Of a stretch of DNA of 64,000 nucleotides, positions 7,907-51,466 are shown piece after piece (position 1 is the stretch's first letter; each line of letters begins with the position of its first letter). The notes below the pieces were generated by a model. That model had not been told where the DNA came from and ran no database searches. It saw only the letters and a list, made by a program, of their open reading frames with translations. The DNA is from a virus. Where the stretch lies: the IMG/VR virus record IMGVR_UViG_3300044712_002668, positions 248,001 to 312,000 of that record, one strand, 5' to 3'. The position numbers and the translations under genes were made by a program.

Positions 7907-8130
7907 GATATCTGAATGCAATCAGTTTTGCAGTAATTGTTTTGGTATGGCCGTTTGATGATAGAACTCCTGGTTGGTTTCAGAAGAACAAAATTGATAT
8001 TGGTATTATTATTGATTGGCCTATAAATACTTTTGATGTTGGCGAATGGCCGGTTCCTCCCCAGGATTTCGCTCCAACCCAGACTCCTTCTGTTCCGCCA
8101 GACATTGAAGAGTTCGATGATGTCCTATGA
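7903..8130 (+). CDS. Small protein with hydrophobic N-terminus
   Basis: 75 residues. Residues 4-16 (LNAISFAVIVLVW) are hydrophobic enough for a signal anchor or short membrane segment; the C-terminal half is Pro-rich and acidic (PVPPQDFAPTQTPSVPP). Possibly a membrane-anchored or exported peptide. It overlaps both neighbours by ATGA. Confidence 0.62.
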   Translation: MRYLNAISFAVIVLVWPFDDRTPGWFQKNKIDIGIIIDWPINTFDVGEWPVPPQDFAPTQTPSVPPDIEEFDDVL

Positions 8131-9125
8131 CTCAAACACAATCAATCAAGACTTCAAAGAAAACTCCTAAAAAGGAATTCTACTCTCCAGCATCTCCCAA
8201 GACATATAGAGCTGAGAAACCTGAGGTTTGGGCATCTGAACGAATCATGAATTTCATGATGGAGCGTTTGGAAGCATATAAGAAGAATCCTGATGGGAAG
8301 AAGATTGTATTGCCATGGCAGGCTACTTGGAGCCGTTCAACGATTCTTCCCCGCAGACATAAGACCAATAGAGTTTATCATGGTTTGAATTTGATGATGC
8401 TTTTGATGACGGGTTATGGTTCTCCATTTTATTTTTCGTATAAGGATATTTCGGAGCTTGGTGGTAAGGTTATCAAGGGACAGCATGGTTGGCCGGTGAG
8501 TTTCTGGTTTGAGGTCAAGAAGGAGCTTGCTGATGGTACCAAGGAAGGCACTGGATATTGGAAGTGTAGATATTTCAATATCTTCAATCTGGAGCAGACT
8601 GAGGGTATCGACCCTGCCAAGCTGCGTAAGATTGTAGTTGAAGAGGATAAGGATCATAATCCAATTGAGGAGTGTGAGGCTATTGTGGCTGGGTATGAGA
8701 ATCCTCCCAAGATTGTTTTCAAGGGACAGCAGCCATGTTACAGACCTCTGCTGGATCAGGTTGATATTCCGGCAATCAAGAAGTTCAAGACTCCTGAAGC
8801 CTACTATGCAACGTTGTTCCATGAGTTGGCTCACTCAACTGGTTCTGACAAGCGGCTGAATCGTGAGACTCTGGTGAAGGTTGCGGGTTTTGGAAGCCAT
8901 CTCTATTCCGAGGAGGAGTTGGTTGCCGAAGCTTGTGCCGCTATGCTCTGTCGTAAGGTTGGGATTGAGAATACTGTCATTGATAACTCTCTGGCTTATA
9001 TTGAAAACTGGATGAAGGCGCTTACCCCTGAGGTATTGGCAACATCCATCAAGGCAGCAGGTAAGGCGTATGAGCGGATAGTGGGAAACAGCGAGGCGGA
9101 GGAGAACAATGACGGAGAAGAATGA
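8127..9125 (+). CDS. ardC: ArdC-like antirestriction protein with zincin domain
   Basis: 332 residues. The N-terminal domain (about 35-150) has the ArdC/TraC pattern LPWQATW...NxVYHGLNLMMLLMTGYGSPF...FKDISELGG, the ssDNA-binding fold. The C-terminal domain has the zinc-peptidase motif FHELAHSTG (H, E, H) followed by EELVAEACAAML. Such polyvalent proteins are injected or expressed early by phages and plasmids to counter host restriction. Together with ardA it forms an early anti-restriction set. Substitution of the motif would be expected to abolish any protease activity. Confidence 0.88.
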   Translation: MTQTQSIKTSKKTPKKEFYSPASPKTYRAEKPEVWASERIMNFMMERLEAYKKNPDGKKIVLPWQATWSRSTILPRRHKTNRVYHGLNLMMLLMTGYGSPFYFSYKDISELGGKVIKGQHGWPVSFWFEVKKELADGTKEGTGYWKCRYFNIFNLEQTEGIDPAKLRKIVVEEDKDHNPIEECEAIVAGYENPPKIVFKGQQPCYRPLLDQVDIPAIKKFKTPEAYYATLFHELAHSTGSDKRLNRETLVKVAGFGSHLYSEEELVAEACAAMLCRKVGIENTVIDNSLAYIENWMKALTPEVLATSIKAAGKAYERIVGNSEAEENNDGEE

Positions 9126-10928: not shown

Positions 10929-11642
10929 TCAGGAAACATCAACAAGGATTGGTTGAGGCTCCATGAGTTTTAAAAGCTGACCAGCTTTAAGGGCTGTTTT
11001 ATTTCTTGGCTCAAACAAAGGGTTTTGAGCATCAGATCCTTTAGCGTTATATTTATTCATTAAGATAACCCCTTCAAGATCTTCTTTATCATATGGTTTT
11101 TGATATTGTGTAATTCTTTTGAAACATATTTTTCTTAATATTTCGCTAATATGTTTTTTTACTACGAGGTATGGCTCTATAACTGTAAGAAATGAAGCTA
11201 CATCATAAAAACAATCAATTTGCCATTTCTGACACATTCTAGTGTTTTTATGTTTGCTTGGTTTAGATTGTTTATATAGATGACCACCACATAACTCTTG
11301 TAGTCTTACTTGCATTATTGGTGTTGTACTATTAACACAGACTCTTGTATATATATGGTTTTTCTTATATACAGCTCCAATATAACCTTCACCATCTATA
11401 ATACCAGCAATCCATCCTTTATCTTTTTCTGGAAGTTTTTCTAATTTTGATACTAATGATTTGAATCTTGTCATATCCCTTTCTGCTTTTAGATCTTTTA
11501 CAATATTCCAAAAATTACTTTTTCTACATGGTATGATTTCTATAATTTCTTCATATTTTTTACCTGATAAAAACAATTTTCTAATTTGGTTTGATTGTTC
11601 TTCAGATAGTCTAATTTGCGTTCCATCTTTTGCTTTAGGCAT
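10929..11642 (-). CDS. LAGLIDADG homing endonuclease, free-standing
   Basis: 237 residues on the minus strand inside a plus-strand gene block. GWIAGIIDGEGYIGA (residues 76-90) is a LAGLIDADG helix with its catalytic acidic residue, followed by the expected beta-rich core and VVKK. Residues 12-52 look like a helix-turn-helix (LSEEQSNQIRKLFLSGK...). A single motif implies action as a homodimer. Such enzymes cut at intergenic or genic sites and spread by homologous repair. Ribosome site AAGGAG lies in a perfect hairpin (11647-11670). Confidence 0.85.
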   Translation of the reverse strand: MPKAKDGTQIRLSEEQSNQIRKLFLSGKKYEEIIEIIPCRKSNFWNIVKDLKAERDMTRFKSLVSKLEKLPEKDKGWIAGIIDGEGYIGAVYKKNHIYTRVCVNSTTPIMQVRLQELCGGHLYKQSKPSKHKNTRMCQKWQIDCFYDVASFLTVIEPYLVVKKHISEILRKICFKRITQYQKPYDKEDLEGVILMNKYNAKGSDAQNPLFEPRNKTALKAGQLLKLMEPQPILVDVS

Positions 11643-11702: not shown

Positions 11703-13058
11703 ATGCCTCGTATCGAAACCACTATCAAGGCTGAGTATCTGAGTTCTGGACGTGGGGCATGGTCTACCTATTCCGGAATTCGTGAATTGCTACAGAATGC
11801 AAGGGATGCGGAAATCCAGCTAGATGCTCCTATGACCGTAGAGTTTGTGTATCGGGTTCGTAAGGGTGAAAAAGTTGGCGCAATGGTGGTTAAGAATGAT
11901 GGTTGTGTAATGCCACGTGAAACTATTTTGACTGGTCATTCTACCAAGCTAGGTGATTCTCGTTTGATTGGAAAGTATGGTGAGGGTTTCTGTTTGGGGC
12001 TCCTTGCCCTGCTCCGTAATGATGTTGATATCAAGATTCGTAATGGTAGTGAGGTCTGGAATCCTGTGATTGCCAGGTCCGATAAGTTTGATGCTGATGT
12101 TCTTGCATTCGATATTACTACTGGTCATAAGTATGAGAATCGTGTTCAGATTGAAGTAGTTGGAATTTCAGAGGAACAATGGGTTGATATTGAGAAAAAA
12201 ATCCTCTTTCTGAACAAGCATTCAATCACCGATACTGTTGATGTTTCTGATGGTAAGATCATTATCGATCCTCGTTATAAGGGTATGGTTTTCGTCAAGG
12301 GTATGTTTGTTCACAATACCGATTTTCGTTTCGGTTATGATTTCAAGGATGCCGATATTGATCGGGATCGCCGGATGCTTTCTAATTTGAATGAGAAGAC
12401 CTCTTCTCTGTTGGCTCAGGCTTGCAATAGCGGTAAGCTCTCCTCTGCCATTCTGGATATGTTGATGGAAAGTAAGAATGAGGTTGATGAAATGACCTCA
12501 TGGCGATTGAGGGAATCCGGTATGGATAGTATCTTGAAGGAGTTTGAAGAAATGTATGGTGGTGCATTGCCCGTTCGTGATGAAGAGGAGGTAAGAGAGT
12601 TTGGTATCTATGGTGTCAAGGCCATGGTAGCTCCTTATAATATCCGCAATATCTGGGAGTCCCGTAAGGGTACCATCTCCAGTCAGTTGAAGAAGCTCCG
12701 TCAAAGCGCCATTACCGCTTTCTCCCTTGATGAACTCTCCGAAGTTGAAAGGAATAATTTCAATAAGGCTGTAAAGCTGGTTGCTCAAGCAAGGCAAAGC
12801 ATTGGTGATAAGGAGCTTGATATCAACAATATTTTTGTTTGTCATTTCTCGAAGGGAGATTTGTTGGGGACATACAATCCGGAAGATGGAACGGTGAGAT
12901 TGGCCAAGGGAATTCTGAATGACTTTGGAAAGACGTTGTATACTTTGATTCATGAGGTTGCTCATGAGCATGGCCGGGATGGTTATCTCAGTCATGAGAA
13001 GGTGATTGGTGAGTTGACTGAGGTTGTGTTCAATGAGATGAGTAAGGGTAATAACTAA
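11703..13058 (+). CDS. GHKL-type ATPase fused to a zinc metalloprotease-like domain
   Basis: 451 residues. The N-terminal part has the GHKL/HSP90-type ATP site: RELLQNARDAE (N box, about residues 27-36), KNDG (about 64-67, in place of DxGxG) and GKYGEGF (about 90-96). The C-terminal region has LIHEVAHEHG near residue 417, an HExxH zinc-peptidase motif, followed by helices containing a possible third ligand (GELTEVVFNE). I do not know a characterised protein with this pairing. It begins a long operon running to about 24.9 kb. No strong AAGG site precedes the ATG. Confidence 0.78.
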   Translation: MPRIETTIKAEYLSSGRGAWSTYSGIRELLQNARDAEIQLDAPMTVEFVYRVRKGEKVGAMVVKNDGCVMPRETILTGHSTKLGDSRLIGKYGEGFCLGLLALLRNDVDIKIRNGSEVWNPVIARSDKFDADVLAFDITTGHKYENRVQIEVVGISEEQWVDIEKKILFLNKHSITDTVDVSDGKIIIDPRYKGMVFVKGMFVHNTDFRFGYDFKDADIDRDRRMLSNLNEKTSSLLAQACNSGKLSSAILDMLMESKNEVDEMTSWRLRESGMDSILKEFEEMYGGALPVRDEEEVREFGIYGVKAMVAPYNIRNIWESRKGTISSQLKKLRQSAITAFSLDELSEVERNNFNKAVKLVAQARQSIGDKELDINNIFVCHFSKGDLLGTYNPEDGTVRLAKGILNDFGKTLYTLIHEVAHEHGRDGYLSHEKVIGELTEVVFNEMSKGNN

Positions 13059-13059
13059 T

Positions 13060-13257
13060 ATGAACCGTGCATGTCAATGTGAGGATTGTGAAGGACCGCA
13101 TTGTGGTAATTGTGGCTGTCATGCCGAGGGAGTTTGTGAGAAGTGCAATCCTGAATCTCTTGAGGATCGCAAGCGGCGATATGTTTATGAGACCTTGAAG
13201 GAAGAGCCAAGTTCTTCTCAGGAACAGGTCCTGAAGCAGTTCGGACTCCATGGATGA
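13060..13257 (+). CDS. Small Cys-rich protein
   Basis: 65 residues. The first 30 carry ten cysteines in C-x-C, CxxC and HCGNCGCH arrangements, probably binding one or two zinc ions, followed by a charged helix. It overlaps the next gene by 8 nt. Similar small zinc proteins are frequent in this window. Confidence 0.62.
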   Translation: MNRACQCEDCEGPHCGNCGCHAEGVCEKCNPESLEDRKRRYVYETLKEEPSSSQEQVLKQFGLHG

Positions 13258-43669: not shown

Positions 43670-43841
43670 TGAATTGATTCTGGATATTGCAGAAAAATTT
43701 CATGTACCACAAAATAAAGTAGGGTTATCCAGAGTTTCTCATGGATGGTTGGCCGATATCAGGGTTGGCGGACATACCTATGAGTATGAGGCCAGCTCTG
43801 ATATCGAAGCTTTGAAGGGATTGTTATCACATCCTATTTGA
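43650..43841 (+). CDS. Hypothetical protein
   Basis: 63 residues, MENSSVDELILDIAEKFHV... with a beta-hairpin (GWLADIRVGGHTYEYEAS). Overlaps the previous gene by 20 nt and converges with the minus-strand peptidase gene. Unknown. Confidence 0.6.
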   Translation: MENSSVDELILDIAEKFHVPQNKVGLSRVSHGWLADIRVGGHTYEYEASSDIEALKGLLSHPI

Positions 43842-44793
43842 TTTGATTATAAACATCTTTAAATAATCTTGCTATCTTTACAAGCTCACTTATATGTGAG
43901 CTTTTTTTATTCTTACCAAACACACCAGAGATATACTTTTCTGCTTCTTGCAGGGTTTTCAATGGTTCCTTCCTTAATACGGATTCGTGTTTGGTTGCTT
44001 TACCATGAGCCTTTTCATAATTATCCCCATCATAAATCATATGTTCACACTCTATGATTTCATGAATGAGTATAGGGATGAGTTCTTTCTTTTCATAGTG
44101 TGATTCAATCCATATCGTATTGTTTGGTACATAGGAATACCTTCCAGGGTTTCCTCCCATAACAAAATCAGTATCAAACTTCTGACGTACCAAATTACCA
44201 TCTACAAGATTTACTTTATAACCGTATACTTCGCCAATTTCTTTTGTAACAACATCTTTATCAGAGATGTTTTTATGTTTTTTATATTTATCCATTCTCT
44301 TTTCTGGAGAATCTTTCTCTTTCCATAAAACAATTATACGTTTATCTACGGGTTTTTTATGGTTATCCTTTGGAAATGTAAACCATATCGGAGCGAATTC
44401 TTTTTGTGTGATGATTTTATATTCACCAACTGAAGGATCCATTATCTCTATCTCTGTATCGTTGATGTCAGATACTACAGAATAATGAGAATCATCATTG
44501 CTAAACCACTCTACAATGATTTGATAATTCTCTTTCAATAATTTCTCTACTTCTTTAAAAGAAGAATTGTTTTTTATATAACCTTTAAGATTATATTTCT
44601 TGGCACCGCTTAAAAGATCTTCAGCTTCTATACCATGCTCTTCAGTGGCACCGATATTCTTGGCAATATCTTCCAACTCTTCATGGGTATTATAGAAATG
44701 CAGGATGCTTTTCAGACATGCCGGTCCACAGAAACCTGGGGTCTGATCAATCGCTATAGGTTTTTTATAAAACTTTTCTTCAGCTTTCGTCAT
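43834..44793 (-). CDS. C39-like peptidase fused to a zincin-like domain, minus strand
   Basis: 319 residues. IDQTPGFCGPACLKSILHFY (about 15-34) with Q and C, DDSHYSVV (about 100-107) and IMDPSVGEY make the Gln/Cys/His/Asp set of C39-like papain-fold peptidases. The second half has LIHEIIECEHM then YEKAHGKATKHE, an HExxE-like metal motif shared with the protein at 51732. The end, ISELVKIARLFKDVYNQIK, is the terminal amphipathic helix seen in other minus genes. Polyvalent proteins of this kind are often packaged in phage heads. Confidence 0.7.
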   Translation of the reverse strand: MTKAEEKFYKKPIAIDQTPGFCGPACLKSILHFYNTHEELEDIAKNIGATEEHGIEAEDLLSGAKKYNLKGYIKNNSSFKEVEKLLKENYQIIVEWFSNDDSHYSVVSDINDTEIEIMDPSVGEYKIITQKEFAPIWFTFPKDNHKKPVDKRIIVLWKEKDSPEKRMDKYKKHKNISDKDVVTKEIGEVYGYKVNLVDGNLVRQKFDTDFVMGGNPGRYSYVPNNTIWIESHYEKKELIPILIHEIIECEHMIYDGDNYEKAHGKATKHESVLRKEPLKTLQEAEKYISGVFGKNKKSSHISELVKIARLFKDVYNQIK

Positions 44794-44833: not shown

Positions 44834-47269
44834 ATGAAAGCAAACAAAGAACAGAATTTAAACAAGCATTTGTACTGTGTGATGCTTATGGCCATGCATT
44901 GTGCTGAATATCTTGGCGTCAATGATACGGCTCTCAAAGAGGTCATCGGGCTTTCTGCTTTCCTTCATGACGTAGGTAAGGCTACCAAATATTTTCAAAA
45001 CATCTCCCTCAGGGAAGAGAAGACCAGCACCAAAAAGTTTTTCGATCTTATTCGTGAACAGTATCCCCAATTTTCCGGAGAGGATGGTAAGGATTGGTAT
45101 CCGAGGCATAACGAAATCTCATGGTTGTGGGCGGCTCTACACGCTACCGGTAAGTCTCTGTTCAAGAAGGTTGGCCTCCAAGCTATCTATTGGCATCACG
45201 GAACCTTTGATATCAACCCTATCCGAGATACTGATACCAAATCCCTTGTAGAAGAATTGACCAAGTTCTCTCCCGATGAATGGAAAACCATTGACCAAAC
45301 AATCAAATCCCTTATTGATAATACAAACTTTCCTTTTGATATTACAAAGTATCTTGATGATAACATTGAACATTGTAAGATGTCACCTTTGTTTGATATT
45401 GAAGATAAGGCTGCCAATAATGGCATGATTGAAAACGCTCAGCGTTGGGTTATTCGTAGTTGTGTGATGTATGCTGATGCTACTGTTTCAAGGATGTCTT
45501 CCGATGAATTGAATGATCTAATTCTCAATAGAAATCCAGCTACTTATTTCAAGCCTTATTATCTCTCTGTGAAGCCTGAGTTTGTTTGTCCTGAAGGTTA
45601 CGATCCGGAACGTTTCAGGATTCAGAGTGAGATTTATAAGAGTTGTAATCATACTACGGTTGTAAAGGCTCCTGCTGGTTTCGGTAAGACCTTGATTGGT
45701 TTGATGTGGGGCCTGCTACATGGACAACAGTTCTATTGGGTTTGCCCTCGTAATGATGTTGCCCAAGGCGTTTTCGAAAACATCAAGGAAGAACTCCGTA
45801 GACTTAACATCAATATCAATGTTGAATTGTTCCTGACATCGGAACGTCAAGACTCATTTGGACCGAATGTACCGCATGTACATGGTACGTGTGACATTGT
45901 GGTAACGAACATTGATATGTTGATGGCTCCATTGCAGAGTCACAAGCATGCATGCAGGGTTTTTGATATCAATGCTCGTAACATTATCATGGATGAGTTC
46001 CATGAGTTGATTGGTGATGAAGGAATGTTTTCGGCCTTTATCAATTATATGAGGGCTCGCAATTTGATTTGCTCAAATACGAGAACCTTGCTCTTGTCAG
46101 CTACTCCTTCCGTCCTGAATGAACTTTGGGATAGCGATACAAAGCAAACCAGGCTTCTTCCAGATGATGAACATCATTATAAGGCTCAGCATGATAAGCC
46201 TTATTACTTCAAGTTCGCTACTGCAATGCCCACCAAGCCGTTGCCTGGCTCGTTGAGTATGTATTGCAGCATTTCCACTGTCATTGTAAATTACAATCCA
46301 AGAGTTCATACGGCAATTATTCACAGTCATTATCCAACGAATTACAAGAAGGACATTTTGAATGGAATTTTCAAGACCTTTGGAAAGGGAGGGGATAAGA
46401 ATGGGACTGTGATATCAGCGCCTATTCTACAGGCTGCATTTGATATTTCATTCAGGAGTATGTATAAGGCAGTTGAATCTCCTGAGGGAGACATTCAGCC
46501 ACTTGGGCGTGTGAATCGTTGGGGAGAGTTGGAGAGTGCAGAGGTTGTGTTGGTACCTTTGGCGGCTTCTAATCCTAGTGAACGGGGAGCAATCAATACC
46601 CGATATGATTTGGACCTGCACCGGGATTGGTTGAAGTATTTGAAGAACAATATAAAGTCAAAGGCTACGTTGGATGAGGTTTATTCTTTGTATAATGCTT
46701 ACAATAATGTTGCCAAGCCGAAGTTGATATCTTATTATTACAGGTGTTTGGATAAGGCAACTGAGAGATTGTCAAAGTTCTTCCCCAAGGACTTCGGAGT
46801 TTCCCGGCCTTCTCGTGATAATATCAAATCGGTTTCAAATCTGAGAAGTTATTCTCCATCATTCTTTATTGTAGTAAGGAATTTGAAGACCAAGGATTGG
46901 CATCCATTTGCTTTCAATATTCAGAACTATGATTTGGATGAGTGCATAAGTGAAAACCGGGAGAAGTTGGAAGCGTATACAATTAAAACTGTTATGGAGC
47001 ATTTGAATGAATTGAAGTTTGAGGATGGCGAATGTCATTTTGATTATAGTAAGATTTTGAATAGGTTCTTCAATCCAAAGAGGAAGAGTGAGAAGAAGAT
47101 TGGTGGCAAGCTTGTAAAGATAACTTCCAAGGTTCGTAAGAATTATAAGGCAGAAGATTTTATTGATTATATCAGGGAAACAAAAACGCCATTGCCGGTG
47201 TTTGATAGGTTCTTTGATCCTGTTCGTGGTTTGGTTAAGGAAGAGTTTTTGTACGCAATCAATTATTGA
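44834..47269 (+). CDS. cas3: Cas3 helicase-nuclease
   Basis: 811 residues. N-terminal HD nuclease: SAFLHDVGKATKYF (His45, Asp46). Helicase: KAPAGFGKTLIGL (Walker A, about 273-285), IMDEFHELIG (motif II, about 384-393, DEFH), LLSATPS (about 419) and QPLGRVNRWG (motif VI, about 554). Cas3 degrades DNA opened by a Cascade-type complex. Upstream divergent gene leaves a 40-nt gap. First gene of the cas operon; no cas1, cas2 or cas4 nearby. Confidence 0.9.
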   Translation: MKANKEQNLNKHLYCVMLMAMHCAEYLGVNDTALKEVIGLSAFLHDVGKATKYFQNISLREEKTSTKKFFDLIREQYPQFSGEDGKDWYPRHNEISWLWAALHATGKSLFKKVGLQAIYWHHGTFDINPIRDTDTKSLVEELTKFSPDEWKTIDQTIKSLIDNTNFPFDITKYLDDNIEHCKMSPLFDIEDKAANNGMIENAQRWVIRSCVMYADATVSRMSSDELNDLILNRNPATYFKPYYLSVKPEFVCPEGYDPERFRIQSEIYKSCNHTTVVKAPAGFGKTLIGLMWGLLHGQQFYWVCPRNDVAQGVFENIKEELRRLNININVELFLTSERQDSFGPNVPHVHGTCDIVVTNIDMLMAPLQSHKHACRVFDINARNIIMDEFHELIGDEGMFSAFINYMRARNLICSNTRTLLLSATPSVLNELWDSDTKQTRLLPDDEHHYKAQHDKPYYFKFATAMPTKPLPGSLSMYCSISTVIVNYNPRVHTAIIHSHYPTNYKKDILNGIFKTFGKGGDKNGTVISAPILQAAFDISFRSMYKAVESPEGDIQPLGRVNRWGELESAEVVLVPLAASNPSERGAINTRYDLDLHRDWLKYLKNNIKSKATLDEVYSLYNAYNNVAKPKLISYYYRCLDKATERLSKFFPKDFGVSRPSRDNIKSVSNLRSYSPSFFIVVRNLKTKDWHPFAFNIQNYDLDECISENREKLEAYTIKTVMEHLNELKFEDGECHFDYSKILNRFFNPKRKSEKKIGGKLVKITSKVRKNYKAEDFIDYIRETKTPLPVFDRFFDPVRGLVKEEFLYAINY

Positions 47270-47304
47270 AGTTCAATCAACCAACCAACAAGGAAAAAAA
47301 CAGC

Positions 47305-48417
47305 ATGTCAATCGCCAAGTCTCTGCTTCTTCGTGTCCTTTTCAATGGTGATGGAATCGTCAATTTTGATTCTCCGGATCAAAAGTATCTTTGGAACAAG
47401 TTGGAGGGGGCAGGTTTTATCAGGCACAATAATACCATGGTTGGAAAGGCCAGGTATGAGTCAAAAAAGGTAACTCGTCAGAATCAGGATAAAGAGGATT
47501 ATGAGAAGGAGGTTTATACACGGGTTCCAATCAATTCTGCAGACTGCATTCGTCATACCATGTATGAAGATGTGATGCGAACGCATCTTCCCAATGTTCA
47601 GCATGATGATGATTGGTTGATTCGTACCATTGCAAACCCTGCTTTCATCCAGCGTGGGTATATGTTCCCCCGTGCCAACAAGGAATCTTGGAAGCGCAAG
47701 TCTTCATTGGCTTTCGGTTATGCCAAGGGTATTACGCCAAGTGTTCCGGCAATTGAAACGTTTTCAAATTCTCAAGAAAGGGATAATGTTGAGAAGAGCG
47801 AGAGTGGTTCTGAGACATCTTTCTTCTCTCGTGAGGTTCGAGGACAAGTAAATTATGAAATGACTGGAGTAATTGATTTGGCTGAGCTTGGGTTTATCTC
47901 CTTGAGTGATGTTCATGATCGTTTGGGATTCCATCCCGATCTTGATGGTGAGTTTATTGAGATGTTCAAGAAGCATTTCAAGTTTGAGGATACGATTACT
48001 TCTGGGTATTTTGTTCGTGAAGGTGATGCTTATGAGATTCCTGAGCAGGGTATTCTGCTTGGGGACAAGTATGTTATCGCCATGGTTGAGGATATCCTGA
48101 AGCGTTTGGCCAGGTTCAATTTGGTTCGTACCACTACTGGTTTTCTTCAGACTGCCAAGGTTGAGGTTATGGTTGTCAAGGATCCTTTGACTGACCGTGT
48201 TACCAATACTGATGGTTGGATTAATGTTTTTGATAATGGTAAGTTTTCTGTTGACTTTTTGAAGGGTCTCAAGATTGAGCGTGTTTATAATGAGACCTCT
48301 ATTGAGGAGGCTATTGAGAAGGTTCGGCATTATAAGGAACTGAAGAATGTTGATGAGCCGGTTGTGGAAGCCAAGCCCCCGAAGAAGCCGCGTGGCAAGA
48401 AAGAGGCGGCGGCATGA
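47305..48417 (+). CDS. cas7: Cas7-like backbone protein
   Basis: 370 residues from MSIAKSLLLRVLFNG, with an AAGGAAAAAAACAGC ribosome site; an upstream in-frame ATG overlaps cas3. RVPINSADCIRHTMYEDVM (about 75-93) occupies the place of the Cas7 switch helix, followed by beta-rich sequence (VNYEMTGVIDLAELG, TTTGFLQTAKVEVMVVKDP). The Lys/Pro/Ala tail (KPPKKPRGKKEAAA) is unusual for Cas7 but like other proteins here. Assignment rests on position and partial pattern; the closest subtype is unclear. Confidence 0.65.
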   Translation: MSIAKSLLLRVLFNGDGIVNFDSPDQKYLWNKLEGAGFIRHNNTMVGKARYESKKVTRQNQDKEDYEKEVYTRVPINSADCIRHTMYEDVMRTHLPNVQHDDDWLIRTIANPAFIQRGYMFPRANKESWKRKSSLAFGYAKGITPSVPAIETFSNSQERDNVEKSESGSETSFFSREVRGQVNYEMTGVIDLAELGFISLSDVHDRLGFHPDLDGEFIEMFKKHFKFEDTITSGYFVREGDAYEIPEQGILLGDKYVIAMVEDILKRLARFNLVRTTTGFLQTAKVEVMVVKDPLTDRVTNTDGWINVFDNGKFSVDFLKGLKIERVYNETSIEEAIEKVRHYKELKNVDEPVVEAKPPKKPRGKKEAAA

Positions 48418-49316
48418 GCAAGTATATTCTGCTTCTGGATTTTCAAAACGCAGGAATCTTTAAAAAGTATTGGCATAAAACAGAGCCTCGCTCTGCTTCC
48501 GGTGATGACCGTATTTTTGATGGAAAGAATTCCGATTATCGTCGTAAGGATCAATGGATTGAACCTTCTACGGTAACCTTTCATTATAGTTTTATTGAGA
48601 ATGTTTTGAGAGTTCTTGCCGGGCGTAGACCCGTTCCTAAGTATCGCTCATCCTGTGTTGAACATGATGATGATATAATCAGGTTGGCTAAAAATAGTTA
48701 TGTAAAAATTGATGCATTGGTCAGGCATTGGGAGGGGAAGCCTGACACATTTGCCACAGAGACCATGACAGTCAGGAAGGCGTCATGGAATGCATGGAAT
48801 CAGGGTTGTATAGTTGGTTGGAAAAGGTTGGAGAATTTGTTGCCTGAGGATTTGTTCAATGAATTCTGTAGATTGGTTGAGAATATTTTTGGAATTGATT
48901 ATTATAGAAAGGTTACGTTGAGTAAGGTTATTGAGAAGATTCATACGATGAAGAATGATAAGAGGATCATATCATTGTGTGACAGGGCGGTAGCCGTTTC
49001 GTGTACAAATTTCAAGCATCTATTGTTGGAAACTGGGCAGCCAACATTTTTTCAAGCCAGTTATAAGAAGTATGGGGATTCAACGGAAGCGAATGTTTGT
49101 ATGAGAACCTTGACTGTGAAGGGAATTGCTGATGTAAGCAGATTGGATGGTATGATTGGAGTACCTGTAACGGCTGAAGAGTTGGAGATGTTCCGCAAGG
49201 GTCGTGGATTTGCCACATTGTTTGATGGGGGTTTGGTAACTATAAACAAGGTTGTAGATTTGGAGTATTCAAACACTGGTGTAGTTTTGAATGGGTATAC
49301 GCAAGCACTACAATGA
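48414..49316 (+). CDS. Unassigned cas-operon protein, Cas5-like candidate
   Basis: 300 residues between cas7 and cas6 with 4-nt overlaps on both sides. It starts with a strand-like YILLLDFQNAG and has a Trp/Arg-rich middle (TVRKASWNAWNQGCIVGWKRL). In reduced type I systems Cas5 sits in this position and caps the crRNA 5' handle; the N-terminal strand would suit a RAMP fold, but I see no diagnostic Cas5 motif. It might also replace the missing large subunit. Confidence 0.45.
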   Translation: MSKYILLLDFQNAGIFKKYWHKTEPRSASGDDRIFDGKNSDYRRKDQWIEPSTVTFHYSFIENVLRVLAGRRPVPKYRSSCVEHDDDIIRLAKNSYVKIDALVRHWEGKPDTFATETMTVRKASWNAWNQGCIVGWKRLENLLPEDLFNEFCRLVENIFGIDYYRKVTLSKVIEKIHTMKNDKRIISLCDRAVAVSCTNFKHLLLETGQPTFFQASYKKYGDSTEANVCMRTLTVKGIADVSRLDGMIGVPVTAEELEMFRKGRGFATLFDGGLVTINKVVDLEYSNTGVVLNGYTQALQ

Positions 49317-49834
49317 ACCTGTATAAAATCCACAAGGCATTTGCGAATCCTTATCAGAACCACCAGGCATTGAAGAACTTGTTTCTGGGAGAGGGGCGGG
49401 TTCTTTTCCAGAACTTGGGTTCTTCTTTATTGGTGCTTTCTCAAATAAAGTTGAGCGATGAATACCGGAATAACTTTTTGATTGATTTTCTTGATATTGA
49501 TAATTGTTTGAATGGTGACATTATGAATTTTTCTATCAGGTTGAATGCTTGCAAGGGCAGTCAGGGCAAGCGATATACGTTGAAGGAGGATGAATTTGAG
49601 AGGTGGGTTGATTGGAAGATGGGACAAGCTGGAGTTTCATTGGTTAAGAAGAGCATTCATAATGAGGGAGTTATTGTTAGTGACAGGCAGGGTGGGCATT
49701 GTTATCATGCTTCATTGTTTGTATCTGGTATATTGAAGGTTGAGGATAGGGTTTTGTTCAGCAAATCGGTTGAGCTTGGCATTGGACATGGCAAAGCTTT
49801 CGGGTTCGGGTTGTTGAATGTGTTTACGTGTTAG
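49313..49834 (+). CDS. cas6: Cas6e-like crRNA endonuclease
   Basis: 173 residues. NPYQNHQALKNLF (His17 as candidate catalytic residue) matches the D-x-Y-x-x-H-x-x-L segment of Cas6e, FSIRLNACKGSQGKRYTL matches its RANP-like strand and basic loop, and ELGIGHGKAFGFGLLNV is the C-terminal Gly-rich loop of Cas6. It would cut the repeat hairpin. It is shorter than E. coli Cas6e (about 200). The array starts within five bases of its stop. Confidence 0.82.
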   Translation: MNLYKIHKAFANPYQNHQALKNLFLGEGRVLFQNLGSSLLVLSQIKLSDEYRNNFLIDFLDIDNCLNGDIMNFSIRLNACKGSQGKRYTLKEDEFERWVDWKMGQAGVSLVKKSIHNEGVIVSDRQGGHCYHASLFVSGILKVEDRVLFSKSVELGIGHGKAFGFGLLNVFTC

Positions 49835-49836
49835 AG

Positions 49837-51466
49837 TTCTCTACTGGTTTTTGTAGGGATTGAAATAAATCTGTCGCTCAGCGCTCCTTTGCCTCGTTGA
49901 ATTGAATTCCCTACTATATTATGTAGGGGTTGAAATGAGCAATTGGCCATAGCTTTCAGGGAACAATACGATCATTGAATTCCCTACTATATTATGTAGG
50001 GGTTGAAATCCCCCAACGACCTGGAGTTTTTACAGATCCAATTAAATTCCCTACTATATGTAGGGATTGAAACCGAATCAGGATATGTCGTCGTGGTTGT
50101 GTATCGGTATAATTGAATTCCCTATTATATAGGGATTGAAAAGTCGCATTCGAAGTCAAGACCGCTATTGGTAAAGTATTCCTACTATATGTAGGGATTG
50201 AAACACCCTGCGTTGGGCCCGAAAGAGACCGGCGGTTGTCCGATTGAATTTCCTACTGTATGTAGGGATTGAAATATAGGAGGCTCCCTCGGGGATGTGT
50301 CAGTGCGAACATTGAATTCCCTGCTATGTGTAGGGATTGAAATGATGTGGTCGGTGCCATATTCCTACCGCGTGACTGAATTTCCTACTGTATGTAGGGA
50401 TTGAAACTCCGTTGGTTCCCGCGAGATGGTTATCGTGGAGGTATTGATTCCCTATTATATAGGGATTGAAATAACGTTTTTGAAGGTCCGTCGCGTATAG
50501 CTTAGTTTAGTTTCCTACTATATGTAGGGATTGAAACGTGCGTATGACATAGAAGTGTGTTGCCGTGATGGTTCCCTGCTGTATGTAGGGATTGAAATCT
50601 TAGTTTCACCGGAATTCAGGTGATGACATTTATTTCCCTGCTTTATGTAGGGATTGAAATGCGAGCAGTCTAAATTCTTCGGCAGTCAGTTTGGAGTCGG
50701 TTTTCCTACCAAGGTAGGGATTGAAATGGTGGACATAACCAGAATAGTCGTGGACTTGTAGTTAATCCCTAATAAAATAGGGGTTGAAATGTAGTTGGCG
50801 GATTTAAAGGAGACCAACTAAATCTCCCTACAATATGTAGGGGTTGAAACTTTCTCTCTTTTCCGCGTCCATCAGTCTTTATGATTCCCCGCTATATGCA
50901 GGGATTGAAATCCGCAACCACCGTTTAGTCCTGCTAACATTACGTAGTTCTCCGCTATATGCGGAGGTTGAAACCCTACTCCGTCTTTCAGTGACGCTAC
51001 CGTTTTTATTCCCTATTTATGTAGGGGTTGAAATAAGGATGGATCCAATCATTGGGATGTTCTATTGTCTCCCTATTTATGTAGGGATTGAAACAGCGGA
51101 AGAACTCAATCTTTCCAAGTTTGATTGATAGTTTCCCTACTAAATATAGGGATTGAAATGCTATTTATGATATGATTCAGCGTGTCAAAATAGTTTTCCT
51201 ACTGTAGTGTAGGGATTGAAACTCCACTGCATCTAGTACAGCGAATGATTCTTAATGTCCCTGCTAATAAGCAGGGGTTGAAACTACCCTGATAGACTGC
51301 CTTCTATTGATTATGATGATTCCCTACAATATGTAGGGATTGAAATCGTCAGGCTATTGATGAGAATGCCATTGTTCAATGTCCCTGCTGATGTAGGGGT
51401 TGAAATCAAAGCACGCCTTCGGGCAGTACAATTAGAATCATCTCCCTACACCATGTAGGGACTCGG
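49837..51466 (+). CRISPR. CRISPR array, 26 repeats, degenerate but covarying hairpins
   Basis: Twenty-six units with a period of 60-73 bp. Each has a stem such as CCCTAC/GTAGGG with a 4-8 nt loop, then RTTGAAAY. Stem sequence varies with compensation, e.g. CTCCGC/GCGGAG near 50950, CCCTGC/GCAGGG near 51259, CCCTA/TAGGG near 50766. The first unit (49837-49866) and last (51441-51466, ending GGGACTCGG) are degenerate. Unique spacers of about 35-46 nt. Leader-proximal units carry an extra ATTGAA before the stem. No leader; the array follows cas6 directly. The last hairpin lies at the 5' end of the next gene's leader. Confidence 0.93.

Follow-up and report, generated by a model that had tools for sequence, protein, structure and literature searches.

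Can one phage protein join a GHKL ATPase-like module to a zinc-dependent peptidase and, if so, what might such a protein do? The question is raised by an intact open reading frame in the window analysed here, a 64,000-nucleotide stretch (bases 248001-312000) of a virus record whose length of 335,988 bases makes this a jumbo-phage gene. Inspection of the sequence had suggested that its 451-residue product carries the N-box and G-box motifs of HSP90-like ATPases and a C-terminal zinc site, and the N-box RELLQNARDA, the lid GKYGEG and the stretch HEVAHEHG are all found in the protein (Table 1).

Table 1. Position of the GHKL-zincin gene and of its parts in the window
Feature	Window position	Strand	Basis
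Whole gene: GHKL, middle region and zincin, 451 aa	11703..13058, stop codon included	+	ORF, model
GHKL ATPase-like module, residues 1-215	11703..12347	+	phrog_6077, model, Foldseek Hsp90/TRAP1
N-box ELLQNARD, residues 28-35	11784..11807	+	E28, N32, D35 near-invariant in 138 representatives
Degenerate G1 box NDGCVM, residues 65-70, Asn in place of Asp at 65	11895..11912	+	alignment
G2/lid motif GKYGEG, residues 90-95	11970..11987	+	alignment
R221-D222-R223, R223 invariant	12363..12371	+	alignment; proposed Hsp90 catalytic-Arg role
Middle region, mostly helical, residues 216-340	12348..12722	+	model
C-terminal zincin domain, residues 345-451	12735..13055	+	model, selecase/Wss1 matches, profile
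Zinc motif HEVAH, residues 417-421	12951..12965	+	same aligned place, 45 sequences chosen for HExxH
D426-G427...H431, candidate third zinc ligands	12978..12995	+	24/24 HExxH-bearing clade A members

Identification of the two domains

Taken alone these motifs are weak evidence, because Pfam scans of the single protein return only sub-threshold matches (HATPase_c 0.11, sacsin 0.056, DUF6782 0.042); moreover, HExxH is not rare by chance, given its six occurrences per 61,100 residues in the six-frame open reading frames of the window. The NCBIfam match to P_loop_sacsin (2.4e-5) is likewise below cut-off, and sacsin-type models score the protein below their curated cut-offs (NF047352, 24.7 of 50 bits; PF25794, 13.7 of 32.8 bits), the former being matched by 34 of 39 relatives at E < 0.01. 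Matches of the single sequence to muskelin and Sld5 are weak and absent from the relatives, and were dismissed as chance.

The reality of both halves is settled by the homologues, with independently built profiles. When the window protein was left out of both builds, the GHKL profile recovered it at 1.1e-64 and the zincin profile at 6e-28, and neither had any other match among the 735 open reading frames of the window. In the PHROGs collection, residues 4-325 match phrog_6077 (function unknown) at 2.4e-49, and a search of the whole virus record found a single copy of the GHKL family. The AlphaFold2 model, based on 39 aligned sequences (mean pLDDT 90.9, pTM 0.74), points the same way: Foldseek comparisons with the PDB recover TRAP1 (2.9e-7) and Hsp90 (2.9e-6), then GyrB/ParE, SMCHD1 and sacsin SR1, and for the C-terminal domain they give selecase (target TM up to 0.60) and Wss1 (0.63-0.64), with HExxH ending a helix (residues 408-420) placed behind strands 377-401. 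Among viral models the best match is a 437-residue phage protein, and many RIIA proteins appear at about 1e-6 to 1e-4. Profile comparisons gave MORC2 (2e-4) as the best PDB matches for the GHKL part, and proabylysin (0.0019), Wss1 (0.0033) and Spartan/SPRTN (0.09) for the zincin. A separate model of a class B relative (see below; pLDDT 83.6) has an identical order of elements, its top matches being Hsp90s over the N and middle domains, followed by MORC. Together these observations make it virtually certain that one chain combines an N-terminal GHKL module of the HSP90/MORC/sacsin-like kind with a C-terminal zincin, just as the original prediction had it.

Distribution of the fusion

Strict peptide patterns drawn from the single protein found no match in viral contigs, and alignment-based scans were therefore needed. 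Searches with tblastn matched 103 phage records, in which most of the relatives read are 360-400 residues long and end after the GHKL module and middle region, without a zincin; a few relatives are extended by an HExxH domain, among them those of Moorella phage MTATph1 (CDS0173, HETLHKYSGARDCTREFE) and Exiguobacterium phage vB_EalM-132 (EalM132_00137, HETIHRVTGANDNTEAF). With the C-terminal domain as sole query, tblastn returned nothing except the Moorella phage, at E 0.4. Approximately 150 further loci came from alignment-based scans covering IMG/VR and the genomes of bacteria and archaea. HExxH lies near the C-terminus in 45 of 156 distinct sequences (median open frame 465 aa) and is missing from the remaining 111 (median 383 aa). 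The 45 fusion sequences span IMG/VR contigs, the Moorella and Exiguobacterium phages and two large Bacillota plasmids (Alkaliphilus and Aneurinibacillus), in which three GHKL copies precede one HExxHxxxGxxDxTREFE domain. The layout of these plasmid proteins (L018, 1937-5248; L019, 2387-5260) is reminiscent of the three Hsp90-like repeats of sacsin.

A tree of 138 GHKL regions built with FastTree puts the window protein in a clade of 32 (support 98), 24 members of which have HExxH and eight do not, and sets class B apart from it; deep placements are unsure because of long branches. Presence or absence of HExxH requires eight changes on this tree, against about 36 with shuffled labels, a pattern that both repeated gain and repeated loss of the domain would fit. 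The distribution is patchy and includes phages of widely differing virion size. The GHKL-zincin fusion is hence a real and apparently undescribed protein type: it recurs widely, and the literature searched, with small coverage of subscription papers, contains no account of it, in line with the earlier remark that no characterised example was known.

The zinc site

The zinc-site residues fall into two patterns, class A (HExAHxxGxDGxxxHvxxiE), which includes the window protein, and class B (HExxHxxxGxxDxTxxFE). Every one of the 24 HExxH-bearing members of clade A has H417, E418, H421, D426, G427 and H431, residues that are strictly kept at an overall identity of only about 35%; in class B the two histidines, the glutamate and the aspartate are invariant in 10 of 10 aligned members. 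The eight other clade A members (L089, L095, L102, L106, L108, L111, L121 and L125), which fall in at least four branches, retain the C-terminal region but lack both HExxH and the DG pair, which were lost together; L089 reads EELAH and L095 EEVSH, with a glutamate in place of the first histidine. Such joint conservation and joint decay would be expected of a working metal site, and we consider it likely, on these sequence patterns, that the site is functional. Of the two candidates for the third ligand, Asp426 is common to both classes, and His431, at the start of the last helix, is confined to class A. The ligands of zinc in Wss1 are His115, His119 and His125 (PMC5557861); in our reading, Asp426 sits about where Wss1 carries the third of these. 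The zinc site named in the original prediction has accordingly held up, and the comparison across homologues by which it could have been refuted, that of the conservation of the motif residues, did not refute it.

The nucleotide site

E28, N32, D35, G90, G93, G95 and R221-D222-R223 are nearly or fully invariant among the 138 representatives, R223 being present in every one of them. Based on a local resemblance to Hsp90, in its SREML segment, we propose that R223 may be the counterpart of the catalytic arginine in the Hsp90 middle domain. The G1 box (DxGxG) is less orthodox. In Hsp90 its aspartate contacts adenine. In the window protein this aspartate is Asn65, a change whose equivalent in Hsp90 abolishes ATP binding, and the second glycine is Val69; at the aspartate position 23 of 27 class A members, the window protein included, have asparagine, 8 of 12 class B members keep aspartate, and 92 of 96 members without HExxH have N, S or T. 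The lysine of GEGxK, nearly universal in the family, is Cys97 here. Given these departures, nucleotide binding is somewhat more likely than not but cannot be taken for granted, and the specificity may be a different one. The N-box of the original prediction is thus confirmed; of its G-box motifs the G2/lid element is intact and the G1 element degenerate. Less secure is its further idea of ATP-driven control of the protease, since most of the family has replaced the G1 aspartate and 8 of the 32 clade members no longer have the zinc motif.

Genomic context

Clustering of neighbourhoods across the loci of the relatives found no neighbouring gene family common to most of them, and a fixed two-gene system was rejected since no conserved partner gene emerged. 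The neighbours of the relatives are mostly nucleotide, NAD, metabolic or replication genes (dUTPase, deoxynucleoside kinase, glutaredoxin, pnuC), and one zincin-less relative sits among tail genes. The PADLOC matches cover only the GHKL part of TmtA, so the protein was not assigned to any named defence system.

In the window itself, the gene is flanked directly upstream by a homing-endonuclease-like gene on the minus strand (10929-11642), a relative of which also adjoins the GHKL gene of locus L070, and directly downstream by a cysteine-rich 65-residue open reading frame (13060-13257) with no family match. A second zincin is encoded 2.6 kb upstream by an antirestriction gene (8127-9125) of the ArdC-N plus MPTase-PolyVal type (PF08401, PF18818). 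A compact, phage-encoded type I CRISPR-Cas locus occupies 44834-51405 and specifies a Cas3 with an HD domain, a Cas7fv-like protein, Cas6e and one further, possibly Cas5-like, protein; no Cas8 was found in this operon. The array that follows the Cas genes has 24 repeat ends (ATGTAGGGATTGAAA) at a spacing of mostly about 60-73 nt, and its repeats are unusually degenerate, with a variable 5' half. Beside the operon, on the minus strand (43834-44793), lies a gene for a protein with a C39-type cysteine peptidase domain at the N-terminus and an HEIIE motif at the C-terminus.

Functional interpretation

Given these contextual connections a role in host takeover or defence is plausible, and we tentatively propose, with somewhat less than even confidence in the full mechanism, that the protein is a counter-defence or host-takeover protease in which a GHKL clamp gates the binding of clients. 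In this reading it would act on its own and would probably be synthesised during the replication or takeover phase of infection; its GHKL and middle regions would form an Hsp90/MORC-like clamp that may bind nucleotide. This clamp would probably dimerise and capture a client protein, likeliest a host defence or regulatory protein, which would then be cut by the C-terminal single-domain zincin; zinc would be held by His417, His421 and either Asp426 or His431, with Glu418 as general base. In fold and logic such a protease would be akin to the rIIA-type GHKL proteins. In favour of this proposal are the recovery of both halves by profiles, the TRAP1/Hsp90 and selecase/Wss1 folds on which the class B model agrees, the near-invariant GHKL residues, the 24 intact zinc sites with their eight joint losses, the RIIA fold matches, the mostly metabolic or replicative neighbours of the relatives and the nearby ArdC-type gene. 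It also draws on earlier work that placed rIIA-type GHKL proteins with variable C-termini in counter-defence and regarded SprT-like metallopeptidases of phages as probable cutters of host proteins (PMC7824862). Against it stand the substitutions at the G1 aspartate and at the GEGxK lysine, the lack of a conserved neighbour as a pointer to partner or target, and the relative located between tail genes; furthermore, the clade members that kept the C-terminal region without HExxH indicate that catalysis is not always needed.

The zincin might alternatively serve the phage's own DNA. A MORC-like clamp could load on DNA and a Wss1/SPRTN-like domain remove crosslinked or nucleoid proteins that block replication, a role consistent with the Wss1, Spartan and MORC2 profile matches, with weak SprT-like (Pfam) matches in 9 of 39 members, the window protein not among them, and with the location of several relatives near replication and nucleotide genes. 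However, neither a DNA-binding tail nor a zinc finger is recognised in the 451-residue protein, the sequence matches are marginal, and those to selecase and proabylysin are of about the same quality as those to Wss1, so that we regard such clearing of DNA-protein crosslinks or nucleoprotein as quite unlikely. Just as doubtful is the view that the C-terminal domain serves chiefly for binding or dimerisation, as in rIIA-type proteins, whose C-termini vary, and that its peptidase activity is vestigial or restricted to some lineages: the scattered HExxH-less members of clade A and the complete absence of the zincin from most of the wider family speak for it, but the strictness of the site in the other 24 members, despite their divergence, and its decay as a whole rather than piecemeal do not fit it well.

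A role as an assembly chaperone that carries its own maturation protease for virion proteins appears improbable. The Hsp90-like fold would suit it, jumbo phages have other chaperone and metallopeptidase pairs, such as MoxR-vWA-peptidase, proposed for virion assembly (PMC7824862), and there is the one zincin-less relative among tail genes; yet the neighbours are mostly non-structural and the family is patchily spread over phages of very unlike virion size. We consider it very improbable that the zincin cuts its own chain and releases the GHKL module, in the manner of the self-processing proposed for MPTase-bearing polyvalent proteins of phages (PMC5512222), since the relatives with an extra GHKL array have only one terminal zincin and the window protein is small, with no second effector domain to be released.

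Returning to the client-cutting protease, its boldest version would be a nucleotide-gated enzyme in which a GHKL/Hsp90-type clamp, not an AAA+ unfoldase, selects folded clients and presents them to a zincin on the same chain and so destroys specific host defence proteins. We think this unlikely; if true, a GHKL clamp and zincin in one chain would represent a different coupling of nucleotide state to proteolysis, in a fusion that is recurrent across diverse phages. To our knowledge, known ATP-dependent proteases use AAA+ unfoldases, and phage GHKL proteins, rIIA included, have a long genetic history with a biochemistry that is unsettled. Cleavage would offer a readable enzymatic output by which phage GHKL function becomes directly testable, with the natural relatives in which the zincin is intact, motif-less or absent as ready-made controls.

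Comparison with known systems

Among the closest known proteins are the phage GHKL proteins of phrog_6077 (phiTE, 4MG, Ab18 and others), annotated as hypothetical or histidine kinase-like ATPases. They are alike over the N-terminal 320 residues, sharing the RELxQNAxD, GxFGEGxK and RDR motifs, but unlike the window protein most of them stop at about 360-400 residues and have no zincin. The window protein is a member of this family with a minigluzincin-like domain. That domain shares with the minigluzincins (selecase, proabylysin) and with Wss1/SPRTN the succession of a helix, three strands, the HExxH helix and a final helix; it differs from them in its candidate third ligand common to both classes, an aspartate (HExxHxxGxD), in the extra histidine of class A and in being fused to a GHKL module. 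The zincin core is also like that of the ArdC/MPTase-PolyVal zincins of phages and plasmids, described previously (PMC5512222), although the window protein has no match to PF18818 (one of 39 relatives matches, at 0.017) and has Gly436 at the position of their conserved helix glutamate ligand.

T4 RIIA and RIIA-like proteins combine, as the window protein does, an N-terminal GHKL module with a variable C-terminal part, and the T4 rII genes are required for growth on lambda lysogens with RexAB (PMC9391042). Useful sequence similarity to T4 RIIA is limited to the N-box and lid. Orthology was rejected because direct comparison gave no useful signal (BLASTP E 3; HMM 5.7 bits; hhalign 75 columns at 62% probability) and RIIA appears by fold only; a T4 RIIA query had no match in the virus record, in a search without a positive control, and Vibrio phage PWH3a-P1 encodes both an RIIA and a phrog_6077-type protein. 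The window protein is rIIA-like in fold and not an rIIA orthologue. With Hsp90/TRAP1/HtpG, MORC2 and sacsin SR1 it has in common the GHKL fold, the N-box, GxxGxG and the apparent middle-domain arginine; in contrast to these, its family has mostly replaced the G1 aspartate and has a much shorter chain, and in the window protein the zincin stands where Hsp90-type proteins have their C-terminal dimerisation domain.
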